DNA from: Agromyces sp. NDB4Y10
GTDB taxonomy: Bacteria; Actinomycetota; Actinomycetes; Actinomycetales; Microbacteriaceae
Reading direction: 5' to 3'
Assembly (NCBI RefSeq): GCF_001620055.1
Contig: NZ_LQGY01000025.1
Location: forward strand, 1-64,000
DNA: 64,000 nucleotides
Shown: positions 49,124 through 51,352 of the stretch, one piece after another
How the letters are laid out: each line of letters starts with the position of its first letter
Position numbering within the stretch: position 1 is the stretch's first letter
Position numbers and translations under genes: made by a program
The notes under the pieces: model-generated
Told to the model about the DNA's origin: nothing
What the model saw: only the letters and a program-made list of their open reading frames with translations
Database searches by the model: none

Positions 49124-50545
49124 ATGGTGGATACGGCTGCGGGCCTGCGCTCGGGCGCGACGCCGCTCGCGGTGCGCATGCGGCCGCGGAGCCTCGACGA
49201 GGTGGCCGGTCAGCGCCACCTGCTCACGCCCGGTTCGCCCCTCGTCGCGCTCGCCGCCGACCGGACGGGCGAGTCCGGCGCGGTCTCCGTCATCCTCTGG
49301 GGGCCGCCCGGCACGGGCAAGACGACGCTCGCGCAGGCGATCGCGCGGTCGTCGGGGCGCAAGTTCGTCGAGCTCTCGGCCGTGACCGCCGGTGTGCGCG
49401 ACGTCCGCCAGGTCATGGAGGAGGCGCGGGCCAACCGCGACCTCTACGGCGTCTCGACCGTGCTGTTCCTCGACGAGATCCACCGCTTCACCAAGGCGCA
49501 GCAGGACGCCCTGCTGCCCGGCGTCGAGAACGGCTGGGTCATCCTCGTCGCCGCGACGACCGAGAACCCCTCGTTCTCCGTGATCTCGCCGCTCCTGTCG
49601 CGGTCGCTGCTGCTCACCCTCGAGACGCTCGACGACGACGACCTCGGCATGCTCGTCGACCGAGCGGTCGCCGACCCCCGCGGCCTCGCCGGGCGGGTCG
49701 CGCTCGCGCCCGAGGCGCGTGCGGCGATCATCCGGCTCGCCTCCGGCGACGCACGGCGCGCCCTGACGGCGCTCGAGGCCGCATCGCTGTCGGCGACGGC
49801 CGAGGCCGAGGCCGAGGCAGAACGGGCCGGGGGCTCGGGCGCCGCGTCGGTCGACGGCGACGACGCGGATGCCGCGGCATCCGTCGACGGCGACGAGCCC
49901 GCCGTTCCCGTGATCACGCCCGAGACGGTCGCCCGCGCGGTCGATCGCGCCCTCCTGCGGTACGACCGCGACGGCGACGAGCACTACGACGTGATCAGCG
50001 CCTTCATCAAGTCGGTCCGCGGCAGCGACGTCGACGCGGCCCTGCACTACCTCGCGCGCATGATCGAGGCAGGGGAGGACCCCCGCTTCATCGCGCGACG
50101 CATCATCGTCCTGGCCTCGGAGGACATCGGTATGGCCGATCCGACGGCCCTCGGGGTCGCGGTCGCGGCCGCCGACGCGGTGCAGTACATCGGTATGCCG
50201 GAGGGGCGCATCCCGCTCGCGCAGGCGGTCGTCCACCTCGCGACGGCGCCGAAGTCGAACGCGGCGTACGTGGGCATCGACCGCGCCATCGCCGACGTGC
50301 GCGCGGGCAAGGCCGGCCGGGTCCCGAAGCACCTCCGCGATGCGCACTACCCGGGCGCGAAGCGGCTGGGGCACGGCAAGGGCTACGTCTACCCGCATGA
50401 CGACCCCATCGGCGTCGTCCCGCAGCAGTACCTGCCCGACCCGCTGCGCGGGGCGGTGTACTACACGCCGACCGAGCACGGCAATGAGCGCGACGTGTCG
50501 TCCCGACTGGGCAAGCTGCGGCGCATCGTGCGCGGTGAACGCTGA
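49124..50545 (+). CDS. rarA: replication-associated recombination protein RarA (MgsA)
   Basis: AAA+ ATPase that acts at stalled replication forks, related to clamp-loader subunits. The 473-residue protein has [16 protein letters not shown], Walker A GPPGTGKT (60-67), Walker B LFLDEIH (114-120), sensor-1 AATTENPSF and the C-terminal tetramerisation region ([31 protein letters not shown]). Residues 224-263 are an acidic Ala/Glu/Asp-rich insert containing ASVDGD twice, between the lid and C-terminal domains, not usual for the family. Confidence 0.94.
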
Positions 50546-50560
50546 GCCGGGCGTTCGTGG

Positions 50561-50566
50561 TAGCAT
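50561..50566 (+). promoter_or_regulatory. -10 element of the rpsD promoter
   Basis: TAGCAT, predicting a start near 50573 and a leader of about 155 bases before the rpsD GTG. Confidence 0.5.
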
Positions 50567-50572
50567 TTCCGT

Positions 50573-50728
50573 TGGCCTGAAGCCAGATTCTCGCGTGCGG
50601 CTGCGCGGTTTCCACGGCGAAGGGCGCGACCTGTAGCCGGTCCGCCCGTGGCGAACCCCTCTGACAAGTCTTTCCGGCGCCTCGCGCGCCCGGAACCACA
50701 CCGTTCGAGAATCTTCCGAAAGGACATC
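50573..50728 (+). ncRNA. structured 5' leader of rpsD (candidate autoregulatory element)
   Basis: AGATTCTCG (50585-50593) is perfectly complementary to CGAGAATCT (50706-50714), which ends just before the ribosome site GAAAGGA. Inside this closing helix lie CCACGG/CCGTGG (50612-50617 with 50646-50651) and TTCCGG/CCGGAA (50672-50677 with 50690-50695), giving a branched fold. Ribosomal protein S4 is a known leader-binding repressor in other phyla, so feedback control is a reasonable inference. No named RNA family is claimed. Confidence 0.5.
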
Positions 50729-51352
50729 GTGACCAGCCAGTCCCGAAGCAAGACCCGCCTCTCCCGCGCGCTCGGCGTCGCCCTCACCCCGAAGGCCGCC
50801 AAGTACATGGAGAAGCGCCCGTACGCTCCCGGTGAGCACGGCCGCACCAAGCGCAAGCAGGACTCCGACTACGCGGTCCGCCTCCGCGAGAAGCAGCGCC
50901 TGCGCGCCCAGTACGGCATCCGCGAGAAGCAGCTCCGCATCGCGTTCAACGAGGCTCGCCGCACCGACGGCCTGACCGGTGAGAACCTGGTCGAGCTGCT
51001 CGAGATGCGCCTCGACGCGCTCGTGCTCCGCGCCGGCTTCGCCCGCACCATCTCGCAGGCCCGCCAGTTCGTGGTGCACCGCCACATCACCGTCGACGGC
51101 CGCATCGTCGACCGCCCCTCCTTCCGCGTGAAGCCGGGCCAGATCATCGGCGTCAAGCAGCGCTCCGAGGGCACCGAGCCCTTCCAGGTCGCCGCGGCCG
51201 GCGGCCACGTCGACGTGCTCCCCAAGGTCCCGGGCTACCTCGAGGTCGAGCTCGACAAGCTGCAGGCGAAGCTCGTGCGTCGCCCGAAGCGCGTCGAGGT
51301 GCCCGTCACCTGTGACGTGCAGCTCGTCGTCGAGTACTACGCCGCCCGCTAG
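50729..51352 (+). CDS. rpsD: 30S ribosomal protein S4
   Basis: Primary 16S rRNA-binding protein that nucleates the 30S body. The GTG start at 50729 after GAAAGGACATC gives 207 residues beginning MTSQSRSKTRLSRALGVALT, standard for actinobacterial S4; an extended in-frame start at 50648 would add 27 atypical residues across the leader. The S4 RNA-binding domain is seen as RLDALVLRAGFARTISQARQ. It stands alone, not in the alpha operon as in E. coli, and ends in a strong terminator. Confidence 0.96.
   Translation: MTSQSRSKTRLSRALGVALTPKAAKYMEKRPYAPGEHGRTKRKQDSDYAVRLREKQRLRAQYGIREKQLRIAFNEARRTDGLTGENLVELLEMRLDALVLRAGFARTISQARQFVVHRHITVDGRIVDRPSFRVKPGQIIGVKQRSEGTEPFQVAAAGGHVDVLPKVPGYLEVELDKLQAKLVRRPKRVEVPVTCDVQLVVEYYAAR

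Follow-up and report, generated by a model that had tools for sequence, protein, structure and literature searches.

Control of its own synthesis by the ribosomal protein S4 is a textbook case of autoregulation. S4 is an established ligand of leader RNAs in phyla other than the Actinobacteria (PMC7247131; PMC10931766). In Bacillus subtilis, where rpsD stands alone, S4 binds the leader of its own gene and represses its own translation, and in the alpha operon of Escherichia coli S4 is again the regulator and the control is translational (PMC10931766). The S4 leader of the Firmicutes contains a conserved GUAA that imitates rRNA, and further S4 leaders were predicted in Bacteroidia, Clostridia, Flavobacteria and Fusobacteriales (Eckert and Weinberg 2020, PMC7247131). 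As with the leader analysed here, these predictions are supported by covariation, concern S4 genes or operons and take their ligand from the gene context; the Bacteroidia and Flavobacteria motifs are described there as hairpins, unlike the present leader (PMC7247131). Neither Table 1 nor the Results text of PMC7247131 lists an actinobacterial S4 leader, and none is among the S4 leaders that section 13 of PMC10931766 describes. A survey of open-access titles and of the openings of abstracts, a scope that takes in little of the subscription literature, likewise returned no actinobacterial S4 or rpsD leader.

The window, i.e. the whole stretch of 64,000 nucleotides of contig NZ_LQGY01000025.1 of the soil bacterium Agromyces sp. 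NDB4Y10 that was analysed, carries rpsD on the forward strand at 50729..51352, with a GTG start. Its product is the 30S ribosomal protein S4 according to the NCBIfam models PRK05327 and rpsD_bact (both above cut-off), and the nearest named rpsD loci are those of Agromyces. The neighbouring genes encode an AAA ATPase (NCBIfam matches including RarA, below the cut-offs) and alaS (above cut-off). The gene is therefore outside any ribosomal protein operon here, in agreement with a sequence-only reading of this stretch, which had described rpsD as standing alone. A leader of about 156 bases lies between the AAA ATPase gene, which ends at 50545, and the GTG at 50729. The stretch 50573-50728 is the 5' untranslated leader of rpsD, its transcription start being predicted.

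50558..50566, + strand: extended -10 promoter motif TGGTAGCAT, a pattern common to 68/76 representative leaders
50573..50728, + strand: class I rpsD leader RNA (match of covariance model R1 at 50571-50669, E 9.3e-16; covariation)
50718..50724, + strand: Shine-Dalgarno sequence GAAAGGA, from the sequence

The extended -10 motif is found upstream of helix P1 in 68 of the 76 representative leaders against 5% of shuffled regions, and it predicts a transcription start near 50573 in the window. A start downstream of 50593, which would speak against the structure proposed by the sequence-only reading, is not indicated. The GAAAGGA that this reading placed near the 3' end of its helix was found at the position listed above. 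A sigma-70 consensus scan requiring a -35 element gave no match, and no terminator-like site was found in 50400-50900.

Leaders for comparison were gathered from the rpsD loci of 80 named records and from related genomes, including 36 of the window's genus. The 80 named loci are divided among 47 leaders of the window's type (class I), 31 of another type (class II) and two that belong to neither (L063 and L088). The pairing of each helix was evaluated by a model-free strand-swap test, in which the pairing of the native 5' strand with the native 3' strand is compared with its pairing with the 3' strands of other species. The sample was composed of 76 representatives sharing at most 80% core identity, chosen from the 168 leaders that parsed in a set of 217 (the window and 216 loci). 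Outside these 168 are the leaders missed by the anchor pattern, those with no recognised Shine-Dalgarno sequence and the 31 loci of class II. Because variable spacers blur the MAFFT alignment, the helices were identified by visual inspection, with the two loops as anchors, before being swap-tested. Applied to 48 class I leaders as MAFFT had aligned them, RNAalifold returned one six-pair helix only, which corresponds to the loop-loop complement.

In the class I fold, P1 closes two arms, namely P2 with the loop GCGGCUG and P3/P4 with the loop UGUAGCC, and P5 comes after them. The order along the RNA is predicted start, P1, P2, P3/P4, 3' strand of P1, a strand similar to AUCCCUCU, P5 around a variable hairpin, Shine-Dalgarno sequence and GTG. 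The window contains the following elements.

50575..50577, + strand: P1 5' strand, pairs with 50650-50652 (strand-swap z -4.0, 76 leaders)
50592..50607, + strand: P2 hairpin, four inner pairs 50592-50595/50604-50607 (strand-swap z -16.6)
50596-50603, + strand: P2 loop UGCGGCUG, from loop counts in class I cores
50599..50603, + strand: GGCUG of loop 1, complementary to UAGCC of loop 2 (50634-50638), proposed loop-loop contact
50622..50626, + strand: P3 5' strand, pairs with 50643-50647 (strand-swap z -6.2)
50628..50642, + strand: P4 hairpin, four pairs 50628-50631/50639-50642 (strand-swap z -16.6)
50632-50638, + strand: P4 loop UGUAGCC (loop 2)
50643..50647, + strand: P3 3' strand, pairs with 50622-50626 (strand-swap z -6.2)
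50650..50652, + strand: P1 3' strand, pairs with 50575-50577 (strand-swap z -4.0)
50655..50662, + strand: conserved strand ACCCCUCU (AUCCCUCU in most relatives), from alignment columns
50659..50665, + strand: P5 5' strand CUCUGAC, pairs with 50703-50709 with one mismatch (strand-swap z -3.9; local folds of relatives)
50703..50709, + strand: P5 3' strand GUUCGAG, pairs with 50659-50665 (strand-swap z -3.9; local folds of relatives)

P1 to P5 form a conserved RNA fold on the S4 gene, supported by strand-swap covariation. Each of the five z values is beyond all 5000 permutations, the signals of P1, P3 and P5 being much weaker than those of P2 and P4; these values are not probabilities, since the permutation ignores relatedness. 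The stems around the GGCUG and UAGCC loops vary freely yet stay paired. Among 135 unique cores drawn from 167 parsed leaders, P4 pairs 1 to 4 occur in 134, 135, 133 and 131 cores respectively, and the two middle pairs each display all four Watson-Crick types. Pair counting on a model-made alignment of the 76 representatives gave 122 changes that affect both sides of a pair, where shuffling gave a mean of 33, and such changes are present at every P4 pair; 92.9% of the cells were paired against 22-43% when the partners were slid. The strand-swap test weighs more than this counting, because the alignment behind the counts had been fitted to a model that already contained these pairs, its 76 rows having been picked by a pattern demanding GGCTG and TAGCC and then aligned to that model. 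P5, whose end is about 8 bases 5' of the Shine-Dalgarno sequence, is clearest in relatives (UCUUAC/GUAAGA in L153, UCGAUU/AAUCGA in L176). In the window and the seven nearest leaders, P2 is weak in its lower part. No signal was obtained for the CCCUC strand as a partner of the Shine-Dalgarno sequence (strand-swap z +1.2). A contact between the GCGGCUG and UGUAGCC loops is plausible from their complementarity; the GGCUG/UAGCC match is invariant in the 76 representatives (whose selection pattern contained both words), and as both loops are invariant the contact has no covariation support.

The same observations bear on the idea that no RNA structure is involved and that what is conserved here is a DNA element or a short coding region. 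Such an element would fit the position beside the promoter and the strong conservation of two short words, but base pairing is preserved through changes, G-U pairs included, and this covariation contradicts both a DNA and a coding reading. Moreover, all three frames are represented in the spacing from one loop to the other (22, 25 and 29 of the 76 leaders). We consider this explanation to be extremely improbable.

The sequence-only reading had given the leader another shape, with a perfect 9-bp long-range helix closing it onto the ribosome site and enclosing two further 6-bp helices, which it mentioned without coordinates.

50585..50593, + strand: 5' strand of the first-proposed helix, AGATTCTCG, perfect complement of 50706-50714
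50706..50714, + strand: 3' strand of the first-proposed helix, CGAGAATCT, perfect complement of 50585-50593

The complementarity of these two strands is indeed perfect. The accompanying argument was that its A-T pairs are unlikely by chance in this composition. A perfect stem of at least nine pairs was obtained anywhere in 22/300 dinucleotide shuffles of the leader and with a span of at least 100 bases in 6/300, so the helix is mildly unusual and not compelling. The folding energy of the whole leader is no better than that of shuffled sequences (z -0.67; 56/200 shuffles as good). The longest exact complement between the same two stretches, 9 in the window, falls to 6-8 in the seven nearest leaders (L003-L006 and L032-L034, some of which may be a single species sampled twice through two collections) and to 0-6 in the remaining 45 of the 53 leaders from Agromyces and its near relatives, the window included. 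Over the 76 diverse leaders, the strand swap returned no support for the helix (z +0.5; 3421/5000 permutations as good), which is in clear contrast with P1 to P5 within one and the same test. As a conserved closing stem, the 9-bp helix is thus ruled out by the swap test together with the species comparison, being kept in the nearest species only; it fails the covariation check that the sequence-only reading had itself proposed.

A narrower version would make this helix a working structure, with the leader closed onto the ribosome site by it in the close relatives of the window if not more widely, perhaps as one state of a switch with P2 and P5. The persistence of six to eight pairs in the seven nearest leaders and the scarcity of shuffles with so long a stem at this span agree with it, as does the minimum-energy fold of the window (-61.3 kcal/mol), which contains the helix. 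Enforcing the conserved P1-P4 core in the window yields -53.9, i.e. 7.4 kcal/mol worse with the loop-loop energy uncounted, and single-sequence folding assigns the inner P2 pairs a probability of 0.01. Among the relatives, such folding gives a poor recovery of P2 and P4 in several, while in others, L101 for instance, both are recovered well. As the complement persists in close relatives and the energy favours it, the helix is a possible local alternative state near the window. Nevertheless, the strand swap over diverse leaders, the poor complement in the other 45 and the consumption of P2 and P5 bases (the conserved fold occupies the region of the 5' strand with P2 and that of the 3' strand with P5) make a working role very unlikely.

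What is retained from the sequence-only reading is a structured cis-acting leader on a lone rpsD, with S4 autoregulation as its likely function; covariation and the exclusive linkage to rpsD in the loci examined support it, and the shape that had been proposed was replaced by the class I fold. This class is, in our opinion, probably a new S4 ribosomal leader of Actinobacteria that acts on translation, in which S4 would be both bound and repressive. S4 is the presumed ligand because the only regulated ribosomal protein gene is rpsD, following the rule of PMC7247131. Translational control is preferred over transcriptional control because no terminator-like site was found in 50400-50900 and P5 adjoins the ribosome site. 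S4 in excess over 16S rRNA would bind the P1-P4 body, in which the loops of the P2 and P3/P4 arms can pair with each other. This binding would stabilise the body together with P5 beside the ribosome site, and the stabilised leader would lower the translation of the mRNA of S4 itself.

Conservation and linkage to rpsD fit any element that serves this gene. The conserved RNA might then determine how stable the rpsD mRNA is or how much it is translated at the basal level, or answer another factor, with no binding of S4, and the lack of a clear imitation of 16S rRNA in the leader is consistent with this. Against it, the invariant loops inside varying stems resemble a recognition site, and in several other phyla the leaders of the S4 gene, or of the operon containing it, have S4 as their established or predicted ligand (PMC7247131). 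We find this alternative rather improbable and retain the S4 leader acting on translation.

Compared with the described systems, the window shares with the Firmicutes a lone rpsD preceded by its own leader, whereas the GUAA of the Firmicutes leader is absent from it. With Rfam 15, no family reached any gathering threshold at the window's leader and none matched with E up to 5; no match was obtained in 8 and then 18 loci of class I and of other rpsD leader types. In the E. coli alpha operon, rpsM comes first and its ribosome site is part of the pseudoknot, while in the window rpsD is alone and the conserved helices stop before the Shine-Dalgarno sequence. The S4 leader is known as a kind; the architecture of class I and its lineage appear to be new. 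If S4 binds the class I RNA, one protein recognises yet another scaffold.

Covariance model R1 matched in 167/249 Microbacteriaceae genomes, representing 60/85 genera, and once per genome among the matches listed at E up to 0.001; at the strict threshold, 82/249 genomes have no match. Across the order, 10/297 genomes were recovered, all ten from Microbacteriaceae, and across the phylum 2/246, both from the window's genus. The gene rpsD is downstream of 95/95 of the R1-matched loci examined. In a permissive search of 20 selected genomes, the matches with E below 0.02 were beside rpsD in 11/11 cases and those with E of at least 0.23 in 0/7. Both words GGCTG and TAGCC are present upstream of rpsD in five of 15 Microbacteriaceae genomes negative at the strict threshold (L260, L262, L264, L269 and L270), and this threshold understates the range of class I. 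The two words occur together in 105 of the 106 leaders counted; the exception is L218, where the GGCTG matched is upstream of the promoter motif. The Microbacteriaceae genome of this locus (G104, L218/L257) has a leader devoid of P2 that keeps the UGUAGCC hairpin, the proposed loop partner in front of it being changed to GGUUG. The model is offered for the annotation of an element present in most of the sampled Microbacteriaceae. In the window's own genome, a second similar stretch (contig 39, 81% over 44 bases) was taken as a chance match, apparently within coding sequence.

Besides class I, the relatives carry at least two further architectures of rpsD leaders. Class II is found in Microbacterium, Microcella and relatives (L048, L053, L057, L058, L062 and 26 further named loci; e.g. 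L108:1361-1472). It is composed of a 5' hairpin, a long-range helix of the GACGUG/CACGUC type and a hairpin just before the ribosome site, and in an alignment of 25 sequences each of its 19 modelled pairs is formed in 22-25. An additional helix, CAUCCC/GGGAUG, was noticed by eye and would give a pseudoknot. Like class I, class II is upstream of rpsD, but it has none of the class I arms. Its model R2 matched in 21/249 Microbacteriaceae genomes (9/85 genera) and, across the order, in 12/297 genomes, all from a single Microbacteriaceae genus. When the tables were compared by eye, none of the 21 class II genomes was among the 167 class I genomes. If S4 binds, lineages of one family use two different scaffolds on the same gene, and the replacement of one regulatory RNA by another becomes directly testable.

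For other families (designated f with a number), rpsD loci were taken from one genome in each of 19, and 80 upstream stretches were obtained from 142 matched genomes. Class III is a hairpin of the form CUGGGR..UAGCC-type..GGYCCC upstream of rpsD, whose stems include GGGGCC/GGCCCC, GGGACC/GGTCCC and GGGATC/GATCCC; examples are L322, L326, L333, L349, L361 and L378 (families f3, f9, f13, f14 and f20). By pattern, it was detected in 8/8 genomes of f3, 9/9 of f9, 1/1 of f13, 8/8 of f14 and 7/9 of f20, in 2/8 of f4 (doubtful) and in 0/37 of f6, f7, f8, f10 and f12 together; these counts include at least two matches at the wrong place or strand (L318 in f14, L328 in f9) and miss two f20 leaders. Many class III leaders open with GGUUG or GGCUG, which might pair with the loop as in class I, whereas in others, e.g. 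L357 with GGUCG, the loop pairing would carry a mismatch. The helices differ from those of class I, while the GGYUG word and the UAGCC-type loop are common to many members. The leader of G104 resembles a link between classes I and III. In the five families f3, f9, f13, f14 and f20, the word ACAGGA is present near the start codon in 33/35 leaders.

Imitation of an rRNA site is a feature of some ribosomal protein leaders and not of all. The similarity of the whole leader to the 16S rRNA of this genome is not beyond that of shuffled sequences. The loop pair GGCU/AGCC equals what we take to be the strands of the h18 pseudoknot of 16S rRNA. We propose tentatively, as a possibility that we would not yet favour, that the actinobacterial rpsD leaders share an old S4 target, a GGYUG word pairing with a UAGCC loop, perhaps as a mimic of the h18 (530-loop) pseudoknot. 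The scaffold would have been rebuilt in each family: Microbacteriaceae would have three arms with kissing loops, and at least five other families a hairpin whose GGYUG partner is located 5' of it.

Several minor observations concern the words themselves. The reverse complement of the loop word GCGGCUGC (50597-50604 in the window) matches part of the 530 loop exactly in the 16S rRNA of this genome (L256), and the word is absent from the rest of that 16S sequence on both strands; this may reflect chance, imitation or pairing. Further types of rpsD leaders share words with class I: those of f12 (L352, L355, L356 and others) form a short hairpin with GCGGCUGC in the loop, those of f10 (L330, L335 and others) contain AGCC then GGCUGC within a hairpin loop, and those of f7, e.g. 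L358, have a AAUCCCUCUUUCCC strand with GGGAAACAAC downstream. Finally, in seven loci (L286-L292) rpsD apparently comes directly after rpsK.
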